Shown here in pieces: positions 3,970-50,088 of a stretch of DNA of 64,000 nt; within the stretch, counting starts at the first letter, position 1; each line of letters opens with the position of its first letter. The DNA is from Selenomonas sp. AE3005 (GTDB lineage: Bacteria; Bacillota; Negativicutes; Selenomonadales; Selenomonadaceae), in assembly GCF_000686945.1 (NCBI RefSeq), contig NZ_JMME01000012.1, forward strand, positions 62,001-126,000, written 5' to 3'. A model generated the notes under the pieces. The model saw only the letters and a list, made by a program, of their open reading frames with translations. It was not told where the DNA came from and searched no databases. The translations under genes were made by a program, and so were the position numbers.

Positions 3970-4848
3970 ATGGAAGAACAAGTAAAACGCAAGTATGGCC
4001 CGAGCTCCGTGGCTGTCCTGAAAGTGGTGCGCGAGTCGGAGTTAGGCGCTTTCCTCGATGCGGAAACCGGCAATACCAGCGATGATATCCTGCTCCATAA
4101 GAATCAGCAGACACATCCCGTAAGTATCGGTGATGAGGTGGAGGTATTCCTGTATCTTGACCCCAAGCGCAAGCTGACCGCCAGTATGCGTGTGCCGAAA
4201 ATGAAGGAAGGGCAGATTGCCCGGCTGCAGGTCATCAATGTGAGCCGGGACGGCGCTTTTGTTGATGTAGGAGCGGAACGCGGTATTTTCATGCCCTATG
4301 CCGGCATGCGCGGCCGTCCGCAGATTGGCGAAGTTGTCTGGGCCAAGCTCTACACGGATAAATCCGGACGTCTGGCGGTGACCATGGAAGTAGAGGACGA
4401 AATGCGCCGGGCCTCCCAGCCGGCGGTCAAGGTGAAAAAAGGCCAGATGGTGACGGGGGCTATTTACAATTACACCGACGCCGGGGCCTTTATGTTCAGT
4501 GAAGAACGCTATATTGTCTTTATCGCCAACAAGGAAATGCCGGAACAGAACCGTCCCCGGGTGGGCGAAGTCGTCACGGCCCGGGTGACCTTTGTACGTC
4601 CTGACGGCCGTTTGAACGCGTCCCTGCGTGAGGCCAAGGAAAAGGCACTCATTTCCGATTCCCAGCGCATTCTGGAACTGCTCACGAGCCGCGGCGGAAA
4701 AATGCCTTACAGTGACGAATCCTCCCCGGAGGTAATCCGTGACAAATTTGGTATTTCCAAAGCTGCTTTTAAGCGGGCTTTAGGTCATTTATTACGCGAA
4801 AAACGCATCGAAGAAAAAGATGGCTGGACATATCTCAAAGAATCTTAA
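3970..4848 (+). CDS. S1-like RNA-binding protein, CvfB/YitL family
   Basis: About 292 residues containing two or three S1-like OB modules (for example VINVSRDGAFVDVGAERGIFMPY and VTGAIYNYTDAGAFMF) and a C-terminal winged-helix segment (RDKFGISKAAFKRALGHLLREKRI), which is the CvfB/YitL architecture. These cytoplasmic proteins bind RNA and influence gene expression post-transcriptionally; the exact role here is unknown. An upstream in-frame ATG at 3943 overlaps rsfS and has no Shine-Dalgarno site. ATG 3970 has TGAGG five bases upstream, so I prefer it. Confidence 0.88.
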   Translation: MEEQVKRKYGPSSVAVLKVVRESELGAFLDAETGNTSDDILLHKNQQTHPVSIGDEVEVFLYLDPKRKLTASMRVPKMKEGQIARLQVINVSRDGAFVDVGAERGIFMPYAGMRGRPQIGEVVWAKLYTDKSGRLAVTMEVEDEMRRASQPAVKVKKGQMVTGAIYNYTDAGAFMFSEERYIVFIANKEMPEQNRPRVGEVVTARVTFVRPDGRLNASLREAKEKALISDSQRILELLTSRGGKMPYSDESSPEVIRDKFGISKAAFKRALGHLLREKRIEEKDGWTYLKES

Positions 4849-14164: not shown

Positions 14165-15043
14165 ATGAAATTTCAGGAAATCATCCTGGCTCTGCAGAAC
14201 TTCTGGTCAGAGCAGGGCTGTATCTTAGCACAGCCTTATGATGTGGAAAAAGGTGCCGGCACCATGAACCCTTCCACTTTTTTGCGTGTACTCGGCCCCG
14301 AGCCGTGGAACGTGGCTTATGTTGAGCCGTCGCGCCGTCCGGCTGACGGCCGCTATGGCGATAACCCGAACCGCCTGTATCAGCACCATCAGTTCCAGGT
14401 TATCATGAAACCGTCTCCAGATAACATTCAGGAACTCTATCTCGAGAGTCTGGAACGTTTGGGCATTGACCCGAAACAGCACGATATCCGTTTTGTAGAG
14501 GATAACTGGGAATCTCCGACGCTGGGCGCCTGGGGCCTGGGCTGGGAAGTATGGCTCGACGGCATGGAAATCACCCAGTTCACCTACTTCCAGCAGGTAG
14601 GCAGCCAGGACGTTAAACCGGTAGCCTCGGAAATCACCTATGGTCTGGAGAGACTTGCCATGTACATTCAGGGTGTCGAAAATGTTTACGACATTCAGTG
14701 GACGGACGATTACACCTATGGCGATGTATTCCATCAGAATGAGTACGAGCAGTCCGCTTATGCTTTTGACCTCTCCGACGAAAAACTGCTGTTTGAGATG
14801 TTTGACAAGTACGAGGCCGAGGCTGTTCGCGTAATTGCGGAAGGCTATGTACACCCGGCCTATGACTATGTGCTCAAATGCTCCCATACCTTCAACCTGC
14901 TGGATGCGCGCGGTGCTATCTCCGTGTCCCAGCGTACCGCCTTTATCGGCCGCGTGCGTAAGCTCGCACGTCTGTGTGCAGAGTGTTACTTAAAACAGCG
15001 TGAGGAACTTGGTTATCCCATGCTGCACAGGGGGGAGAAATAA
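14165..15043 (+). CDS. glyQ: Glycyl-tRNA synthetase alpha subunit
   Basis: Catalytic subunit of the alpha2-beta2 bacterial glycyl-tRNA synthetase. The 292 residues show the class-II signatures [30 protein letters not shown] and [12 protein letters not shown] is preceded by AAAGGAG. Its TAA stop shares one base with the glyS ATG (TAATG), coupling translation of the two subunits. Expression is controlled by the upstream glycine T-box. Confidence 0.98.
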
Positions 15044-17094
15044 TGAGCAAGGACTTACTGTTAGAAATCGGCACGGAAGAAGTACCGGCACACGTAATGC
15101 CGGGTATCCTTGCCCAGTTGAAGGAAAATGCCGCTAAGGCTTTTGCTGACAGCCGCATTGCCTGCGGGGAAATCCGCACCATCGGTACGCCGCGCCGCAC
15201 GGCTCTTTTGGTCAAAGACCTGGCCGAAAAGCAGGAAGATGTGGAAAGTGAAAACCGCGGCCCGTCCGCAGCTATCGCTTTTGACGCTGACGGCAATCCG
15301 ACCAAGGCAGCTCAAGGCTTTGCCCGTGGTCAGGGCATTGACCCGAAAGACCTCGTGGAAAAAGACGGCTATGTCTATGCCATGGTACACGAAAAAGGCA
15401 AGGAAACGGCGCAGCTCCTGCAGACCATTCTGCCGGAACTCATCTGCGGCCTGAATTTCCCGAACAATATGCGCTGGCGCGACCTGGACTTCAAGTTCAT
15501 CCGTCCGCTGCGCTGGATTGTAGCCCTCTATGATACCGAAGTTGTGCCTTTTGAAGTGGCTGAAGTAAAATCCGGCAAGGTTTCCCGCGGCCATCGTTTC
15601 CTGTCGCAGGGCGATTTCACCATTGAGAGTGCTGCAGCATACGAGAAAGCCTGCGAAGAAAACTTTGTCATCGTTGACCAGGAAAAGCGCAAGGCCATGA
15701 TTCGCGAGCAGATTGTCGAAGTTGCCAAGCAGAATGGCGGCCAGGCTGAAATCACTGAAGATCTGCTTGAAGAAGTGCTTTATCTTGTTGAATATCCGAC
15801 GGCTCTGTGTGGCAAGTTCGAGGAAAAATATCTGGAACTGCCGCCGGAAACGGTTATCACGCCGATGCGTGACCATCAGCGTTACTTCCCGGTTAAGACG
15901 GCAGACGGCAAACTCCTGCCGCTCTTTATCACGGTACGCAATGGCGGCAGTGAACACCTCGAAACCGTACAGCACGGCAACGAGCGCGTACTGCGTGCCA
16001 GACTGGCTGACGCGCAGTTCTTCTTTGACGAGGACCGCAAGAAGAGCCTCGAAGAACACCGCGAAAAGCTCAAGACCGTTGTATTCCAGCAGGGCCTTGG
16101 CACCATGTATGAAAAATCCGAGCGCCTCGTGGAACTGGCCGGCTTTATCGCTGATGAAATCGGTGCTGATGAAAAAGCCCATAAACATGCACAGCGTGCT
16201 GCACTCCTGTGTAAAGCTGACCTCGTAACCGGCATGGTTACCGAGTTTACGGAACTGCAGGGCATTATGGGCCGCGAATACGCTAAGCTGGATGGCGAAT
16301 GTGAAAACGTAGCTATCGCTATCGACGAGCATTATATGCCGCGCTTTGCCGGCGACAATCAGCCGCAGACCGCTGCCGGCCGTATTGTCAGCATGGCTGA
16401 TAAGATTGATACCATCGTTGGTACGTTCAGCCGCGGCAAGATTCCCACGGGTTCCCAGGACCCCTTCGCCCTGCGCCGTCAGGCTTTGGGCCTTGTAAAT
16501 ATGCTGATTGAGGCTAAGTGGGACGTGAGTCTGGCCAAGGTCGTGGCTAAGTCCATGGACCTGTACGGTCTGAAGGACGAGGCTGTCCGCACGAAGATGC
16601 AGTCTGATGTAGCTGACTTTATGCGCCTGCGTCTGAAGAACGTTCTCGAGGCTGTCCGCTACGATGTGGTGGACGCTGTGCTCGAAAATGTGGATGATAT
16701 CTACGCTGTTGACCTGCGCGCTGCCGCTGTGGCTAAGTTTGTAGAAGGCAGCGATGCTGCCGCCAACATTCAGGCCTTTGTTCGTGCCTCCAACCTGGCG
16801 AAAAAAGCCGAGGCTGGTGAAATCAGTGAAAGCCTGTTTGCTGCTGACGAGGAAAAGAATCTGTACGATGTCTACAAGTCCACGGCCAGCTCCGTAGCCA
16901 GCCTGGTGGACGGTCAGGACTATGCCGGCGCTATCGATGCCTTGAAGGAACTGGCTAAACCGATTGACGCTTTCTTTGATGCTGTCATGGTTATGGACAA
17001 GGACGAAAAGGTAAAGAACAACCGTCTGTCCCTGCTTAAGGCTATTGACACATTGGTGAACCGTGTAGCTGACTTCAGCAAAATCGTACTTTAA
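15043..17094 (+). CDS. glyS: Glycyl-tRNA synthetase beta subunit
   Basis: tRNA-binding subunit of 683 residues. The N-terminus LLLEIGTEEVPAHVMPG and the blocks LNFPNNMRW, TPMRDHQRYFPV and GRIVSMADKIDTI are family hallmarks; the C-terminal part is the anticodon-binding region. The start overlaps the glyQ stop. A terminator at 17135 closes the operon. Confidence 0.98.
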   Translation: MSKDLLLEIGTEEVPAHVMPGILAQLKENAAKAFADSRIACGEIRTIGTPRRTALLVKDLAEKQEDVESENRGPSAAIAFDADGNPTKAAQGFARGQGIDPKDLVEKDGYVYAMVHEKGKETAQLLQTILPELICGLNFPNNMRWRDLDFKFIRPLRWIVALYDTEVVPFEVAEVKSGKVSRGHRFLSQGDFTIESAAAYEKACEENFVIVDQEKRKAMIREQIVEVAKQNGGQAEITEDLLEEVLYLVEYPTALCGKFEEKYLELPPETVITPMRDHQRYFPVKTADGKLLPLFITVRNGGSEHLETVQHGNERVLRARLADAQFFFDEDRKKSLEEHREKLKTVVFQQGLGTMYEKSERLVELAGFIADEIGADEKAHKHAQRAALLCKADLVTGMVTEFTELQGIMGREYAKLDGECENVAIAIDEHYMPRFAGDNQPQTAAGRIVSMADKIDTIVGTFSRGKIPTGSQDPFALRRQALGLVNMLIEAKWDVSLAKVVAKSMDLYGLKDEAVRTKMQSDVADFMRLRLKNVLEAVRYDVVDAVLENVDDIYAVDLRAAAVAKFVEGSDAAANIQAFVRASNLAKKAEAGEISESLFAADEEKNLYDVYKSTASSVASLVDGQDYAGAIDALKELAKPIDAFFDAVMVMDKDEKVKNNRLSLLKAIDTLVNRVADFSKIVL

Positions 17095-17134: not shown

Positions 17135-17167
17135 AAAAGTCCGTTGATGAAATCAGCGGACTTTTTT
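17135..17167 (+). terminator. Intrinsic terminator of glyQS
   Basis: 14-bp stem AAAAGTCCGTTGAT / ATCAGCGGACTTTT (one G-T pair), 3-base loop, six T. The 610-bp repeat begins three bases later. Confidence 0.92.
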
Positions 17168-17169
17168 AC

Positions 17170-17781
17170 ATAAATTGCAGTTTGATTGTTAGTGCGTGCT
17201 TACTTTTTGTTGTTACAGCTCAGTGGGGTGGAGGTGGTAATACTTTTCGCTGTTGCACTGAATGGCCCACCAGCAAAAGTTTGGATTTTTTTAGCTGCAT
17301 GCGCCGGCAAGCAGTCGGCGCGATTGTTCATCTCAGTTTCCAGATACTGTTGTTTGTGGGCCAGTCCTCACTGCGTTCGGACAGTCGTTCCACTGCGAAA
17401 AGCATCACCACCTCCGCCCTAAGCAGCGTCAATATAAAACGTCTTTTTCTCAGTGACAGGGAACAAGTACATCGATGTTCTTGTAACAGGAGCAACGGGT
17501 TCGTGACAATTGTAAATAGCGTTGCTGGGGCGAACGGGGGAGTGATTTTTATGCGGGGAGCTACTGCCTGAGCGCAGCGAAGGCCGGCACACTGTTGGGC
17601 TCAGCTAAGCAACTACGCTGAAAGGAGCGCCGTTGGCCTGCCCGGCGCAGGTAACTGGATAGCTATTTTTTCCGAAGTGTGTCGTTTAGCGGAGGCAGAA
17701 AAATTACTCCCCCGTGAACCCTATGCACGTATGAACGGGATACTTTTAAGAACTCTTTGACCGTCAAACTTCAACTTACAT
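17170..17781 (+). repeat. ~610-bp structured repeat, copy 1 (candidate large ncRNA or mobile element)
   Basis: First of three dispersed copies. It begins ATAAATTGCAGTTTG and ends with a partly complementary CAAACTTCAACTTA. Internally it holds a long interrupted helix formed by GGTGGAGGTGGTAATACTTT and the later GCGAAAAGCATCACCACC segment, hairpins of the type GCGCCG...CGGCGC, and the helix CGGGGGAGT (17535-17543) with ACTCCCCCG (17706-17714). Copy 1 is the most diverged, differing from the others by scattered substitutions with few indels. An open frame of 78 codons (from 17186) exists but has no Shine-Dalgarno site and shows no sign of codon-level conservation. Confidence 0.85.
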
Positions 17782-17826: not shown

Positions 17827-17880
17827 ATAAAGTCAAAAAGTCAATAAAACATTTGACTTTTTGACTTTATCCTGTATAAT
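17827..17880 (+). promoter_or_regulatory. clpB promoter inside a long dyad operator
   Basis: A perfect inverted repeat with 18-bp arms (17827-17844 with 17853-17870) and an 8-base centre; each arm contains two GTCAA units eight bases apart. The -35 TTGACT (17853-17858) lies in the right arm, with a 16-base spacer to TATAAT (17875-17880). The AGTCAAA heptads resemble CtsR boxes, but CtsR heptads are normally separated by three bases rather than one. Binding here should block RNA polymerase. Confidence 0.8.
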
Positions 17881-17929
17881 AAGATTTAGAAATGAGGATT
17901 TAACCGCGAGTTTAACGGAGGAATACATT

Positions 17930-20506
17930 ATGGGACAGGAAAAATATACTGCCAAGACTATGGCTGCCCTGCAGGGGGCACAACAGATGGCCGCTATGCG
18001 TTATCATCAGGAAATCACTTCCTTGCATGTGCTGCTGGCACTAGCCAAGGAGCCGGAAGGGCTGTTAAATGACATTTTCACTGAGTGTCAGACGGATGTG
18101 CCCATGCTCAAAGCCCGGCTGGAACAGGAACTGGGCAAGATTCCGAGCGTCCGCGGAACGGACAGGCTGTCGATGGGCATGGATATGGTACGCGTACTGG
18201 CCCGGGCGGAAGAGTTTGCCAAATCCATGCAGGACGAGTATTTGTCAACGGAGCATTTGCTGCTGGGGCTGGCTGTTGATGGCAGCAGTGATGTGCAGAA
18301 TATCTGCAAGGAATTTAAACTGACCAAGAGCAATATTCAAAGTGCTATCAAAAAACATCGTAAGCAGAATGTCACCAGCGATAATCCTGAAGATGGGTAT
18401 AAGTCGTTGGAAAAATTTGGCCGTGACCTGACCGCGGCTGCCCGTCAGGGGAAACTGGACCCCGTGATTGGCCGCGATGAAGAAATTCGCCGGACGATTG
18501 AAATTCTTTCTCGGCGCACGAAGAACAATCCGGTGCTGATTGGTGAGCCGGGTGTCGGCAAGACGGCTATTGTCGAAGGCCTGGCCCGGCGTATCGTAGC
18601 AGGTGATGTGCCGGAATCCTTGAAGAACAAAACCCTGTATTCGCTCGATATGGGTTCACTTATTGCCGGGGCCAAGTTCCGCGGCGAATTTGAGGAGCGG
18701 TTAAAGTCCGTACTCAATGAAATCACCAAGTCCGATGGGCAGATTCTGCTCTTTATCGATGAAGTACATACGGTGGTGGGTGCCGGTGCTGCTGAAGGGG
18801 CCATGGATGCCGGCAACCTCTTAAAGCCGATGATGGCCCGTGGCGAACTGCGCTGTATCGGTGCAACGACGCTGAACGAATACCGCAAGTACATCGAAAA
18901 GGATACGGCTCTGGAGCGGCGTTTCCAGCCGGTAATGGTGGGGCAGCCCAGCGTGGAGGACACGATTTCCATTCTGCGCGGCCTCAAAGAGCGCTATGAA
19001 GTGCACCACGGCGTGCGTATCCGTGACGCAGCACTGGTGTCGGCGGCTGTACTGTCTGACCGCTATATTTCCGACAGATTCCTGCCGGATAAGGCCATTG
19101 ACCTGGTGGATGAGGCCGCAGCTAAACTGCGTACGGAAATCGAATCCATGCCGGCACCTATCGATGAAATCCGCCGCAAAATCATGCAGCTGGAGATTGA
19201 AGAGCAGGCGTTAAAGAAGGAAACAGATGCTGCCTCCCAGGAAAAGCTGACGGAAATCACCAATGAAAAGGCTAAATTACAGGCTGAGGAAAACACGCTC
19301 AAAGGCAAATGGGACAGTGAAAAGCAGGCTATCCTGCGCGTCCGGGCTATCAAGAAGGAAATCGATGATGTCAACAGCCAGATGGAAAGTGCCGAAAGGG
19401 CGTATGACCTCAACCGCCTGTCGGAACTGAAATACGGTAAGCTGCCGCAGCTCCAGCAGCAGTTAAAGGAAGAGGAAGAAAAAATCGCTGCCCGGGCGCA
19501 GGGGGAAACTCTCTTAAAAGAGGAAGTGGGCGAGGAAGATATCGCCAAAGTCATCAGCCGCTGGACGGGGATTCCTGTCAGCAAAATGCTCACCGGTGAA
19601 CGGGAAAAACTCATTCATCTGGAAGATGTACTTCATGAGCGTGTCGTCGGTCAGGATGAGGCCGTAAAGGCGGTCAGCGAGGCTATCCTGCGTGCCCGTG
19701 CCGGCATAAAAGACCCCAACCGCCCCATTGGTTCCTTCATCTTCCTGGGGCCGACGGGCGTGGGCAAGACCGAACTGGCCAAGACACTGGCGGAGGCGCT
19801 CTTTGATGATGAACGCAGCATGATTCGCATTGATATGAGCGAGTATATGGAAAAGCACAGTGTGGCGCGTCTGATTGGTGCGCCTCCGGGATATGTGGGC
19901 TATGATGAAGGCGGCCAGCTGACTGAGGCTGTGCGCCGTCGTCCCTATAGTGTCATTCTGCTCGACGAAATCGAAAAAGCTCATCGTGATGTATTCAACG
20001 TACTGCTGCAGATTCTCGATGACGGCCGCCTGACTGATGGCAAGGGCCGGGTGGTGAACTTCAAGAATACGGTAATCATTATGACGAGTAATCTGGGCTC
20101 GCATGAAATCCTCAATAAGAATTATGAAGAGGCCCAAAGTGCGGTCAAGGAGATACTGAAGGAATATTTCCGTCCGGAATTCCTCAACCGTGTGGACGAT
20201 ATCATCGTGTTCAAGGCTTTGGCCAAGGAACAGGTGAAGAATATCGCCGGGATTCTCTTAAAGGCTCTGGGTGAACGTCTGGAACGTCAGGTGAAGATTA
20301 CCCTGGGCTGGAATGATGCCGCCTTGACGGCCCTGGCTGACCAGGGCTTTGACCCGAATTTTGGTGCCCGTCCGCTGCGTCGTCTGCTGGTACATACGGT
20401 AGAAACGGAGTTGTCCAAGGCTATTATCCGCGGCGATGTGCAGGAAGGTGATAAGGTCAGCATTGGGTTTGTAGATGGGAAGTTTACCTTTAGTAAAGAG
20501 GCGTAA
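17930..20506 (+). CDS. clpB: ClpB disaggregase
   Basis: Hexameric AAA+ chaperone that works with DnaK to dissolve aggregates. The 858 residues comprise the Clp N-domain ([20 protein letters not shown]), first AAA+ with GEPGVGKT and [14 protein letters not shown], a long coiled-coil middle domain (about 400-520, rich in Lys/Glu), second AAA+ with [12 protein letters not shown] and [10 protein letters not shown], and a C-terminal small domain. ATG 17930 follows ACGGAGG. Regulation through the dyad at 17827 suggests a heat-shock repressor. Confidence 0.98.
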
Positions 20507-20686: not shown

Positions 20687-20729
20687 AAAAATCTGTTGAC
20701 TGCAAATGTAGTCAGCAGATTTTTTTTTT
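20687..20729 (+). terminator. Strong intrinsic terminator
   Basis: 15-bp stem AAAAATCTGTTGACT / AGTCAGCAGATTTTT with an 8-base loop and ten consecutive T. Confidence 0.95.
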
Positions 20730-23026: not shown

Positions 23027-23076
23027 TTGACATATACCCCCTATAGGTATAAAATTTATACCTATAGGGGGTATAT
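23027..23076 (+). promoter_or_regulatory. csoR-copA promoter embedded in a 45-bp palindrome
   Basis: TTGACA (23027-23032), 17-base spacer and TAAAAT (23050-23055). The sequence 23032-23076 is a perfect palindrome with 22-bp arms around one central base; each arm contains ATACC-N7-GGTAT with a run of five C or G. This matches the GC-flanked CsoR operator style, in two mirror-image sites. CsoR bound to it would cover the promoter, and copper would release it. Confidence 0.88.
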
Positions 23077-23094
23077 TTGTGTATGGAGGCTTTT

Positions 23095-23415
23095 ATGGAA
23101 ACAAGTGCTGCAGGCTGCTGTGGCGGTGAAGTAAGACATAAACACCGCGATAAGGATGGCAGGGAATACAAGAAACTGATATCCCGGCTGAACCGTATTG
23201 AAGGGCAGGTACGGGGCATTCGCCGTATGGTGGAAGATGACAGGTACTGTGTGGATATCATGACGCAGGTCAGTGCAATTCAAGCCGCCTTGGGCGCTTT
23301 TAATAAGGAGCTTTTGTCTGAGCATATCAAAAGCTGCGTAGTGCATGATATCCGTGAAGGTGATGACGCAGTGGTGGACGAGCTCGTAATGCTATTGAGC
23401 AAAATGGTTCGCTGA
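23095..23415 (+). CDS. csoR: Copper-sensing repressor, CsoR family
   Basis: 106-residue all-helical repressor. The copper ligands of the family are present as Cys52 (DRYCVDIM), His77 and Cys81 ([11 protein letters not shown]). The fold signature [15 protein letters not shown] is intact. ATG 23095 has GGAGG five bases upstream; earlier in-frame starts (TTG 23077, ATG 23083) lie before or inside that site. An N-terminal tail with CC and several His ([11 protein letters not shown]) is longer than in many CsoR proteins. It is autoregulated through the palindrome upstream and leads the copA transcript. Confidence 0.93.
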
Positions 23416-23429
23416 GGCGAGGTGATAAA

Positions 23430-26003
23430 ATGAAAAAAGAACGGTTTACGATTACAGGCATGACCTGTTCGGCTTGTTCGGCCAGAGTGGAAAAAGCTGT
23501 GACGAAACTGGCTGGCACGCAGGACGTGAGCGTAAATCTGTTGACTAATTCCCTGCAGCTTGCTTATGATGAAGGGCAGCTAAGTCCGGCGCAAATCATT
23601 GCGGCTGTGGAACAGGCAGGCTATGGGGCCAGTCTGAAGGACACAAAGCAGACAAGTGAGCCGCAGGCTGACGGCGATGATATATGGGCTAAGGACGCAG
23701 CGGCATTGCAACAACGGCTTTGTTTATCACTTGTGTTTTTACTGCCGCTTATGTATATCGCCATGCACCAGATGGTTTATGGCTGGCTGGGCCTGCCAGT
23801 GCCGGAAATTATACAGACGATTTTTGCCGGCCCGGAAAATGCCTTAACCTTTACTTTGGTCCAGTTTTTGTTGTTGCTGCCCATAATGTACCTGAACAGG
23901 AAATACTATATAAATGGTTTCCGCAATCTGTTTCAAGGTGCGCCGAATATGGACAGCCTCGTGGGCATGGGCTCGATGGCGGCGGCCGTATTCGGGGCCT
24001 TTGCCATGTTTCGCATGAGCTGGGGACTCGGCCATGGTGACTGGGGACTGGTAGCTGAGTACAGCCGTAATCTTTATTTTGAATCGGCAGGTATGATAGT
24101 TACGCTGATTACCGTGGGAAAATTCATGGAGGCCAAGGCCAAAGGCAAAACAGGTGCGGCACTGGCCGGGCTTATGGCTTTGGCACCACAGCAGGCCGTT
24201 GTCATGCGCGGCGGTCAGGAAGTCACTATCCCGGCCGACAGTCTGGCCGTGGGCGATGAAATAGTCGTGCGTCCCGGAGAACGACTGCCGGCTGATGGTG
24301 TGGTGCTTTCCGGCCAGACCAGTGTGGACGAGTCGGCGCTGACGGGGGAGAGCCTGCCGGTGTTTAAGCAGCCCGGTGACAAGGTTACGGCGGCCACGTT
24401 GAATAAAAACGGCGCAATTCATTTCCGGGCGGAAAAAGTGGGCGGTGATACGGCTATCAGCCAGATAATCCGCCTGGTAGAAGAGGCCAGCGCCAGCAAA
24501 GCACCACTGGCCAGACTGGCTGACCGCATAGCCGGGGTGTTTGTGCCGGTGGTTATCATCATTGCGCTGGCTGCCGGTGGTATCTGGCTGGCCTTAGGCG
24601 AGAGTGTGGAATTTGCGTTTTCGATGGCGATTTCCGTGCTCGTCATTTCCTGTCCATGTGCCCTGGGACTGGCTACGCCGGTGGCGATTATGGTAGGGAC
24701 CGGCAAGGGAGCGGAGAACGGCATTCTCATAAAATCCGGTGAAGTACTGGAAAATGCCCAGGCCGTAGATACGGTGGTCATGGATAAGACAGGAACCATT
24801 ACAGAGGGCAAGCCTGTGGTTACTGATGTAATTCCCCTGGCCTTATCCGAATCTGAGCTGACAGCATTGGCGGCAGGGCTGGAGAAAAACAGTGAACATC
24901 CGTTGGCTGAGGCCGTTATGGCCTATGCGGCGGAAAAGGGGCTGACGCCTGTGCCGGTAAATGATTTTCAGGCTGTTATTGGCAAGGGGCTTACAGGCCG
25001 TGCCGGTGCCAGCCTGTGCCTGGCTGGCAATGCGGCCTTTATGGAGGAACAGGGCGTAGATACGGCGTCCTGCCATAAGGAATTGACAAGGCTCACTGCT
25101 GAGGGGAAAACACCGCTGCTGTTCGCACAGGACGGCAGGCTGGCCGGGATTATCGCTGCCGCTGACAGGGTGAAGGAATCCAGCAGCGAGGCTATCAGGC
25201 AGCTGAAACAAATGGGGCTGGAAGTCATAATGCTGACCGGTGATAATGAACGTACCGCCGAGGCCGTGCGCCGCCGTCTGGGATTGACAAAATGCATTGC
25301 CGGGGTGCTGCCGGCCATGAAGGAGCAGCATATTGCTGCTTTGCAGGCCGCAGGGCACAAGGTGGCTATGATTGGTGATGGTATCAATGACGCTCCGGCC
25401 CTGGCACGGGCAGACGCAGGCATTGCCATTGGTGCCGGTACAGATGTGGCTATGGATAGTGCTGACGCTGTGCTTATCAGGAGCAATCTGCTCGATGCGG
25501 TAAGTGCCATCAAGCTGTCCCGGGCCGTAATCCGCAATATCAAAGAAAATTGGTTTTGGGCATTTATCTACAATATCATTTGCATACCTTTGGCCGCAGG
25601 TCTTTTGTACCCGGCTTTTGGGCTAAAGCTCTCCCCGATGATAGGGGCAGCGGCCATGAGTATGTCCAGTGTTTGTGTGGTTCTGAACGCATTGCGGCTG
25701 CGGTCTTTCCGGCCGGAGCGCAGTGACGCCGGGAGTGAAAATACACAAGGTAATCAGGAAAGACAGGTATCTGTCGGAAAGGAAGGAATAAAAATGGCTA
25801 TGGAAACTGAATTAAAGATTGAGGGCATGATGTGTGCTCATTGTCAGAAACATGTAAATGACGCCCTGAGCAAGATGGCCGGTGTCACGGCTGTGGAGGT
25901 AAATCTGGAGGCTGGTACGGCTAAAGTTACCGCCGGAAGGGACATTTCCCGGGATGAATTTGCGCAGGTAATCACCGATGCCGGGTATGAACTGGTAGGT
26001 TAA
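23430..26003 (+). CDS. copA: Copper-exporting P1B-type ATPase with N- and C-terminal HMA domains
   Basis: 857-residue Cu(I) pump of the inner membrane. The N-terminal HMA has GMTCSAC (Cys13, Cys16), the transport site is CPC (Cys408, Cys410), the phosphorylation site is Asp452 ([10 protein letters not shown]), and [12 protein letters not shown] is present. [11 protein letters not shown] and [13 protein letters not shown] are P1B-1 copper signatures. Unusually, a second HMA (MMCAHC, Cys802 and Cys805) follows a polar linker at about 740-788. That region includes a ribosome-binding site and ATG in frame, so the tail can also be made alone. It lies 14 bp after csoR. Confidence 0.96.
25794..26003 (+). 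CDS. copZ: CopZ-like copper chaperone from an internal start in copA
   Basis: In-frame ATG at 25794 (codon 789 of copA) is preceded by GGAAGGA at 25781-25787, spacing six, as good as the starts of neighbouring genes. Translation from it yields a free 69-residue HMA protein, [17 protein letters not shown]..., the size and motif of CopZ, which hands Cu(I) to CopA. Either this is a nested gene giving both fused and free forms, or a former copZ gene recently joined to copA by loss of a stop codon. The internal start is inferred from sequence only. Confidence 0.6.
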
Positions 26004-26055: not shown

Positions 26056-26665
26056 ATAAATTGCAGTTTAACGTTTGGTGCGTGCTTATTTTTATTTGTT
26101 ACAGCTCAGTCGGGTGGAGGTGGTAATACTTTTCGCTGTTTCACTGAATGGCCCACCAGCAAAAGTATGTACTTTTCTAGTAACATGCGCCGGCAAGCAG
26201 TCGGCGCGATTGTTCATCTCGGTTTCTAGAAACTGTTGTTTGTGGGCCAGTCCTCACTGCGTTCGGACAGTCGTTCCACTGCGAAAAGCATCACCACCTC
26301 CGCCCTAAGCGACGTTTGTGTAAACTGATTCTTTCGCAGTGACAGGGAGCAGGCACATCGATGTTCTTGTAACAGGAGCAACGGGTTCGTGACAATTGTA
26401 AATAGCGTTGCTGGGGGCGAACGGGGGAGTGATTTTTATGCGGGGAGCGACTGCCTGAGCGCAGCGAAGGCCGGCACACTGCAGGACATCACTAAGCAAC
26501 TACGCTGAAAGGAGCGCCGTTGGCCTGCCCGGCGCAGGTAACTGGACAGCTATCTTTTCCGAGGTGTGTCGTTTAGCGGAGGCAGAAAAATTACTCCCCC
26601 GTGAACCCCATGCACGTATGAACGGGATATTTTTAAGAACTCTTTGACCGTCAAACTTCAATTTA
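26056..26665 (+). repeat. ~610-bp structured repeat, copy 2
   Basis: Very similar to copy 3 and somewhat less to copy 1. Paired helices include CGGGGGAGT (26422-26430) with ACTCCCCCG (26593-26601), and a GCAGGCACAT/ATGTTCTTGT hairpin in which two A-to-G changes relative to copy 3 leave G-U pairs on the plus strand. It lies after copA, without a terminator in front, and runs directly into a bidirectional terminator at 26665. No minus- or plus-strand frame inside looks like a protein. Confidence 0.87.
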
Positions 26666-26703
26666 AAAAAGTCCATTGACATTTTTTGTCAACGGACTTT
26701 TTA
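26665..26703 (+). terminator. Bidirectional terminator between copy 2 and the deacetylase gene
   Basis: Stem AAAAAGTCCATTGAC / GTCAACGGACTTTTT with one mismatch, A-rich on the left and T-rich on the right, so it can end both the plus transcript and the converging minus-strand gene. Confidence 0.88.
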
Positions 26704-49430: not shown

Positions 49431-49478
49431 AAAAGCCCCCATAAGCCGGAAGAAGAAATCTGGCTTATGGGGGCTTTG
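49431..49478 (+). terminator. Terminator of uvrB with short T-tract
   Basis: 16-bp perfect stem (AAAGCCCCCATAAGCC 49432-49447 with GGCTTATGGGGGCTTT 49462-49477). The T-run is only TTTG and the repeat copy 3 begins at the next base, as if the original T-tract was interrupted. Confidence 0.88.
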
Positions 49479-50088
49479 ATAAATTGCAGTTTGTTGGTTA
49501 GTGCGTGCTTATTTTTATTTGTTACAGCTCAGTGAGGTGGATGTGGTAATACTTTTCGCTGTTTCACTGAATGGCCCACCAGCAAAAGTATGTACTTTTC
49601 TAGTAACATGCGCCGGCAAGCAGTCGGCGCGATTGTTCATCTCGGTTTCTAGAAACTGTTGTTTGTGGGCCAGTCCTCACTGCGTTCGGACAGTCGTTCC
49701 ACTGCGAAAAGCATCACCACCTCCGCCCTAAGCGTCGTCCGTTTAAAAGAATTATTTCGCAGTGACAGGGAACAAGAACATCGATGTTCTTGTAACGGGA
49801 GCAACGAGTTCGTGCCAATTGTACAGGCCTTGCCGGGGGCGAACGGGGTAGTGATTTTTATGCGGGGAGCGACTGCCTGAGCGCAGCGAAGGCCGGCACA
49901 CTGTAGTACGCAGCTAAGCACCTACGCTGAAAGGAGCGCCGTTGGCCTGCCCGGCGCAGGTAACTGGACAGTTCTTTTTAGCGAGGTGTGTCGTTCAGCG
50001 GAGGCAGAAAAATTACTACCCCGTGAACCCCATGCACATATTAACGGGATATTTTTAAGAACTCATTAACTGTCAAATTGCAATTTAT
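49479..50088 (+). repeat. ~610-bp structured repeat, copy 3
   Basis: Copy with the clearest end pairing: 49479-49500 pairs with 50067-50088 over 22 bases with one mismatch and three G-T pairs. Other helices: 49536-49559 with 49704-49727 (long, interrupted), GGCCCAC (49573-49579) with GTGGGCC (49665-49671), GCGCCG (49610-49615) with CGGCGC (49625-49630), ACAAGAACAT with ATGTTCTTGT around 49782, and CGGGGTAGT (49844-49852) with ACTACCCCG (50015-50023). No protein-coding signal; an open frame of 76 codons lacks a ribosome-binding site. Confidence 0.87.

Follow-up and report, generated by a model that had tools for sequence, protein, structure and literature searches.

What is the ~610-nt sequence that recurs three times in a 64,000-nt window of the Selenomonas sp. 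AE3005 genome (the window being the whole stretch of DNA analysed), and is it an undescribed large ncRNA, a non-autonomous mobile element or something else? The source genome (G000) comprises 2.82 Mb in 25 contigs; L-numbers below label loci. The three copies lie at 17170..17781, 26056..26665 and 49479..50088, where the first-pass annotation had placed them, and all are on the + strand. It called them near-identical; they are clearly alike, and at 88-94% identity in ungapped blocks and 89-92% over the full length "similar" is the fairer word. Each copy begins with ATAAATTGCAG, and its left and right ends form inverted repeats, so the common and mutually pairing ends described earlier are real, with the right end of copy 1 partly decayed. 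The view that the copies hold no convincing gene also stands: the 129-aa frame seen in copy 1 stays open in 3 of the 75 copies aligned.

Copy 1 sits between glyS (15043-17094) and clpB (17861-20506) and runs from a left terminal inverted repeat, ATAAATTGCAGTTTGAT (17170..17186, +), to a right one at 17763..17781 (+). Between them lie arm I, a structured unit with its sense on the - strand (17225..17419; inner core 17253-17393), a centre (17420..17526) whose conserved palindrome, CAAGTACATCGATGTTCTTG, lies at 17464-17483, and arm II, with its sense on the + strand (17527..17721; inner core 17555-17694). R1, a model of the unit core, scores the two arms at 129.8 and 132.2 bits, respectively. The arm cores of copy 2 are found at 26139-26279 (-) and 26442-26581 (+), and those of copy 3 at 49562-49702 (-) and 49864-50003 (+). 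The same left-minus, right-plus order is returned by R1 in divergent subfamilies of three other genomes (G001, G002 and G012) and in plasmid pSR1.

Because the reverse complement of arm II can be aligned with arm I from end to end, at 56-62% identity in the four elements scored, the ~610-nt element is shown to be one ~195-nt unit duplicated in inverted orientation, with the two units facing outward round a ~107-nt centre. Both arms contain the stretches GCGCCGGGCAGGCC and GGGCCGGCCTTCACTGCGTTCAGGCAGTCG, and each unit combines a conserved, branched core with a long basal stem. The general layout emerges from an alignment of 75 copies from 12 genomes, which leaves out eight split, tandem or arm-deleted loci of the source genome. 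The left terminal inverted repeat, ATAAATTGCAGTTTGAC, is followed by a conserved GTTACAGCTCAGT and then by arm I; the centre contains the conserved palindrome CAAGNACATCGATGTTCTTG; and beyond arm II come a conserved stretch near TATGAACGGGAT and the terminal repeat of the right end. The terminal repeats (ATAAATTGCAGTTTGAC / GTCAAACTGCAATTTA) are ~16 nt long and vary among copies.

This architecture bears on the large-ncRNA reading. For the + strand of copy 1 the folding energy is -231.8 kcal/mol, whereas 20 shuffles average -191.6 (z -5.5), and the - strand fold is comparably strong for its composition (z -5.7); in the 75-copy alignment the whole-element + and - strands are equal in folding (-288.0 and -296.3 kcal/mol). 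A single 610-nt ncRNA is rejected, as the arms are inverted copies of one unit and both whole strands fold equally. The outward sense of each arm folds better than its complement, on the - strand for arm I in 69/75 copies and on the + strand for arm II in 66/75. The earlier failure to recognise a known RNA family was borne out by an Rfam search, in which a tRNA is the only window match at gathering score; seven stretches searched with E up to 10 gave nothing near gathering score (best E 0.097). ROOL, GOLLD, OLE and HEARO, large bacterial ncRNAs of Rfam, resemble the repeat in size range and heavy folding; it differs from them in having no Rfam match, two inverted units and tens of copies per genome. 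We found no description of the repeat in the literature searched. A structured-RNA paper that mentions Selenomonadales describes, in the part drawn on here, a gltD motif upstream of gltD genes that is unlike this repeat (PMC8632094).

That three copies in one window imply many in the genome proved correct: the source genome holds at least 37 copies at 36 loci, a lower bound given that 40 of 54 candidates were scored and adjacent partial matches were read as one copy, and the 68 arm matches of the arm model are compatible with it. Twenty-eight copies are full or nearly full, two lie almost head-to-tail at one locus with a gap of Ns between them, six are without one arm and one is split by an insertion. 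In the split copy (L050:1110-2600; G000:C3, 156100-159600) an IS110-family transposase gene (Pfam Transposase_20 and DEDD_Tnp_IS110) is inserted in arm II, by eye within its conserved GCC..GGC hairpin region. A second genome, G010, contributed at least 33 copies (40 of 43 candidates scored), and its 74 arm matches indicate somewhat more than 33. The source genome and its close relatives thus have about 30 to 40 copies.

All three window copies abut a terminator-like hairpin: copy 1 at its left end (17135..17165, +), copy 2 at its right end (26667..26701) and copy 3 at its left end (49431..49477), the last seen by eye and absent from the computed hairpin list. Across five genomes, a strong hairpin occurs within 62 nt of an element end at 90/116 loci, which include related genomes and are hence not independent, compared with 8/232 shuffled windows and 10/229 distant windows. 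The hairpin is on the left only at 40 loci, on the right only at 42, on both sides at 8 and on neither at 26. A loose stem motif assigns it to the AAAAGTCCGTTGAC type at 47/116 loci. This bidirectional terminator-like type, AAAAGTCCGTTGAC..GTCAACGGACTTTT, recurs in the window at 17135-17165, 20687-20724 and 26667-26701, and the hairpin at 20687-20724 has no element beside it. Gene-direction statistics from longest open frames were set aside as unreliable, antisense frames being long.

How the copies evolve is clearest from two close species, G010 (one contig) and G011 (a draft in 20 contigs), with flanks mostly 92-98% identical. All 28 of the G010 sites tested are occupied in G011, 17 in the same orientation and 11 inverted; of the 33 G010 copies, L117 and L122 (flanks as L116), L118 (repeated flank), L121 and L123 were left out. 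A detailed set comprises 21 pairs, of which 20 match on both flanks and L112/L136 on one only; 13 of the 21, L112/L136 included, keep the same orientation and 8 are inverted, with positions equal to within a few bases. Six further pairs read from coordinates divide into three same and three inverted, and L099/L135, outside the 21 with a repeated flank and a contig end, has the same orientation. The flanks of L114 fall at two G011 contig ends, one of which bears a piece of the element, and L142 of G011 has no single matching place in G010. These inversions are not merely errors of draft assembly, because G010 compared with the 3.0-Mb contig of a third genome, G017, also shows them (two of three common sites inverted, one the same). 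The site of L046 of the source genome is occupied in five species, with G010 and G011 opposite in orientation to G000, G013 and G017.

Position and content are inherited differently at these sites. Reciprocal best matches between G010 and G011 are found in 6/13 same-orientation pairs (93.5-98.0% identity) and in 0/8 inverted pairs, a difference that rests on few pairs (one-sided Fisher p 0.03). In three mosaic pairs (L104/L140, L105/L152 and L116/L150) the left 50-150 bp are inherited and the remainder is at random level. The eight inverted pairs have, on average, the identity of random pairs, the sole near exception being L098/L128 (92.0%), and in-place inversion of one and the same copy is rejected for the other seven by their random-level content. 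Among more distant species, 20 same-site comparisons at nine sites, which are not independent and include four sites matched on one flank only (L027, L028, L042 and L043), deviate from random pairs by z -1.1 to +1.5. Copies of G000, G010 and G017 cluster by genome, with 86-94% identity within and 71-78% between genomes; those of G010 and G011 are unseparated (86.9% between, 86.1 and 87.6% within), and those of G013 and G017 separate only in part (84.5%). Sites persist between close species while their content is homogenised within species, which demonstrates concerted evolution, and the mosaic pairs show conversion directly.

We therefore favour, at roughly even odds (about 0.5), a formerly mobile, terminator-linked palindromic repeat whose copies convert one another and are thereby homogenised and flipped, while selection acts on the fold of its unit. 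The paired element would have arisen by tail-to-tail joining of two units and would have spread in the past through a mobiliser. Its long hairpins may stall or break replication and be cleaved by an SbcCD-type activity, and the break could then be repaired from another copy; given the near two-fold symmetry and inverted ends, the donor might be copied in either direction, which would lead to conversion, random orientation and the loss of single arms. We infer a hairpin trigger because long hairpins are formed, an SbcD-family gene is present in 22/22 genomes (SbcD is common in bacteria) and one-armed copies fit hairpin loss. Repair from a donor is preferred to template switching because switching, as described in part of PMC8604942, would keep the content, whereas the inversions carry new content.

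The usual view is that dispersed bacterial repeats move or decay. Here, short non-coding copies hold their sites between close species while their content is swapped or evened and their orientation is near random. Such sites amount to a natural assay that would reveal how dispersed copies convert one another and how long hairpins affect a bacterial chromosome.

Symmetric placement to the left or right of hairpins, terminal inverted repeats and the random-level content of inverted pairs are also what one would see if a transposase restricted to a narrow target, the terminators at gene ends, re-inserted a MITE-like element in either direction, so that common sites would be hot spots and not the result of inheritance. 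MITEs are short, non-coding, dispersed elements with terminal inverted repeats, and the present repeat is like them in each of these respects and in having sites that differ between distant species. One source-genome site, L031, is indeed empty in G010, G017 and G003. We nevertheless find this account doubtful. A target-site duplication is absent from the 82 scorable copies among 116, beyond single copies, at offsets 0-7 and lengths 3-8 in comparison with permuted pairs. In the source genome the terminal 13-mer (with up to one mismatch) occurs at 55 places, nine of them outside copies and none of these paired, against six for a backwards control, and no second element with the same ends emerges as a partner. 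The occupation of every tested G010 site in G011 and the homogenisation of content in place set the repeat apart from a MITE, and mosaics with inherited ends are not expected from re-insertion.

Nor does a Y1 transposase account for its mobility. Matches to PF01797 occur in 13/22 genomes, but none in the copy-rich G001, G002, G005, G010, G011 and G017, and a Y1/RAYT mobiliser is rejected in view of this lack of correlation with copies. The question arises from the likeness to BIMEs, which are combinations of REP sequences: like REP and BIME, the repeat is extragenic and multicopy, lies near gene ends and contains palindromic units in opposite orientation. REPs, in the part of PMC3733652 used here, are repetitive extragenic palindromes of 20-40 bp whose GTAG families are tied to RAYT transposases; in contrast, the present unit is ~195 nt with a branched conserved core, and several copy-rich genomes have no Y1 match. 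The repeat works like a giant BIME, yet it falls outside that class by size and by its relation to RAYT.

A cleanly empty site was sought and this approach failed. At two G011 sites, L134 and L144, G010 has no element and the entire intergenic stretch differs, and L031 is too diverged to reveal a target. The preferred reading, conversion between resident copies, gives no account of the differing G010 DNA at L134 and L144. At the G010 locus corresponding to L144 (L392) there is another hairpin-rich stretch, CCTTCCCCTAGAGGGGAAGG..GCTGACGGATGAGGTG, where G011 and G017 have the element, and the intergenic modules look as if they were replacing one another. Sites matching L109 in G003, G008 and G016 (L163, L165 and L162) carry other long-hairpin repeats in the same gene gap, with possible small hydrophobic toxin-like genes by eye.

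Opposite orientation also invites comparison with invertible DNA segments, which lie between inverted repeats. The resemblance lies in the same site being found in opposite orientation in close relatives and in the short terminal inverted repeats; the differences are that inverted copies here mostly differ in content and that the centre offers no clear promoter for an inversion to switch. When the centres of 75 copies were scanned for promoters, the mean best sigma-70-like score was 6.83 rightward (shuffles 7.06) and 7.64 leftward (shuffles 7.05), the latter a slight excess. Divergent promoters in the centre find no clear support in these sigma-70-like scores, though copy 1 has one promoter-like site, a sigma-70-like match at 17459-17431 aimed into arm I.

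The fold of the unit was evaluated with 41 units from both arms, 18 pairs and 500 shuffles. Of 738 cells, 99.5% are paired compared with 93.4% in shuffles, 70 cells are changed on both sides compared with 21.6, and the covariation score is 0.242 compared with 0.119, each value reached in 0/500 shuffles; structures slid along the alignment are at most 39.4% paired. Substitutions thus respect the proposed helices. Four pairs alternate between U-A and C-G or between A-U and G-C with zero broken cells. Among the 41 units there is no excess of pairs with changes on both sides (5, with 3.5 in shuffles, reached in 55/500) or in further pair types (8, with 11.2 in shuffles, reached in 500/500), and the paired changes divide chiefly arms and subfamilies, which implies few independent events. 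In 15 distant or divergent units, aligned by fitting to the model and hence leaning towards it, 92.4% of 236 cells are paired and seven pairs are changed on both sides (0/500 shuffles), with no excess of further pair types (10, with 8.7 in shuffles, 126/500). The basal stem lies outside the unit-core model and was scored separately by duplex energy, which is more than 2 SD better than shuffles in 12 of 13 distant or divergent units. The exception is the G007 unit, which has no basal stem by this measure, and the G014 stem is just over threshold (2.2 SD), with one of its shuffles better. Basal stems of 21 and 23 pairs in G236 and G257 are unrelated in sequence.

G-U pairs hint at the strand on which the fold may act. 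When the predicted structures of the two strands are taken in union, the sense strand has more G-U than A-C cells, 293 to 125 in arm I and 301 to 78 in arm II, a suggestive signal in cells that share history; the pairs common to both predictions lack such a bias (arm I, 7 and 6 cells; arm II, 5 and 7). We infer that the unit fold is under selection, probably in the sense strand, where it may act as RNA within gene-end transcripts or as single-stranded DNA. Of the two-way proposal of the first-pass annotation, either a large ncRNA new to the literature or a non-autonomous mobile element carrying such an RNA, there survive the lack of an Rfam match, the respect for helices and the missing published description; a single 610-nt RNA and a classical MITE, with its target-site duplication and a partner element in the source genome, do not. 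The repeat is real and, as far as the literature searched extends, undescribed, and its architecture and in-place evolution outweigh its interest as a large ncRNA.

Paired stems need not imply function if the element were an inert hairpin relic, with template switching during replication keeping stems paired and inverting spacers under no selection. Part of PMC8604942 reports that template switching homogenises repeat arms and inverts spacers, and part of PMC8794818 that it yields compensatory changes. Several unpaired core bases, however, are invariant across the 41 units, and inverted copies mostly lose their content. G-U cells also persist, in 73/74 arm-I units at one basal-stem pair and in 139/148 units at another, which counts against a relic because template correction should remove such cells. 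We regard this explanation as very improbable.

The same conservation could instead reflect a multicopy ncRNA gene family in which each element yields one or two outward RNAs of ~200 nt and gene conversion maintains the likeness of the copies, as it does for rRNA genes. The conserved core with its covariation, the sense-strand G-U bias in the union structure, the better folding of both arms in the sense direction and the promoter-like site of copy 1 would all agree with such genes, as would lone units elsewhere with long basal stems of unrelated sequence and tandem units that follow the direction of an operon. The centre of the 75 copies, however, is without a clear conserved promoter, several copies lack one arm, and four of 22 genomes of the genus (G009, G018, G019 and G021) give no match to the unit model; we judge the family reading to be rather improbable. 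A further candidate, slightly less so but still unlikely, would be a new class of ~195-nt branched RNA arranged as outward pairs at 30-40 terminator-linked sites, with within-species conversion, random reversal of pairs and a homogenising mechanism of its own.

Distribution separates the unit from the pair. By DNA search the element is found in 14/21 other Selenomonas genomes and in 0/19 genomes outside the genus, and by the unit model in 18/22 genomes of the genus, the source genome included. In a 250-genome sample of the class, searched with stricter filters that missed G007 (matched in the 22-genome search), 14 genomes are matched, ten in the genus and four spread over three further genera of its family. 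Among the matches listed outside the genus there is no inverted pair; some are lone units and some are same-direction tandems. In G052, three tandem units occupy the purN-purH gap in the direction of the operon, and within the genus the one unit of G007 lies, by eye, apparently in the same gap; in G236, a unit is located upstream of glyQ. A conserved branched unit that occurs singly in neighbouring genera is a candidate structured RNA or protein-binding hairpin. Phage records and two pattern scans of viral contigs gave no match.

A relative is carried by the Selenomonas ruminantium plasmid pSR1, at 73.5% identity over 42% of the query. The plasmid (L320, NC_002139.1) has one element spanning the origin of the record (4369-4692 and 1-80), and it also has radical-SAM and HAMP-domain genes of chromosomal look; pSR1 might represent a circle or fragment of chromosome with elements at its borders.

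The window has two other palindromic sequences of note. A perfect palindrome, ATATACCCCC..GGGGGTATAT (23032-23076), precedes a metal-sensitive repressor gene (23077-23415), which is followed by a heavy-metal P-type ATPase gene (23430-26003); judging by its motif, the palindrome is probably the operator. Immediately before clpB, an inverted repeat, TAAAGTCAAAAAGTCA..TGACTTTTTGACTTTA (17828-17869), resembles a CtsR/heat-shock operator.
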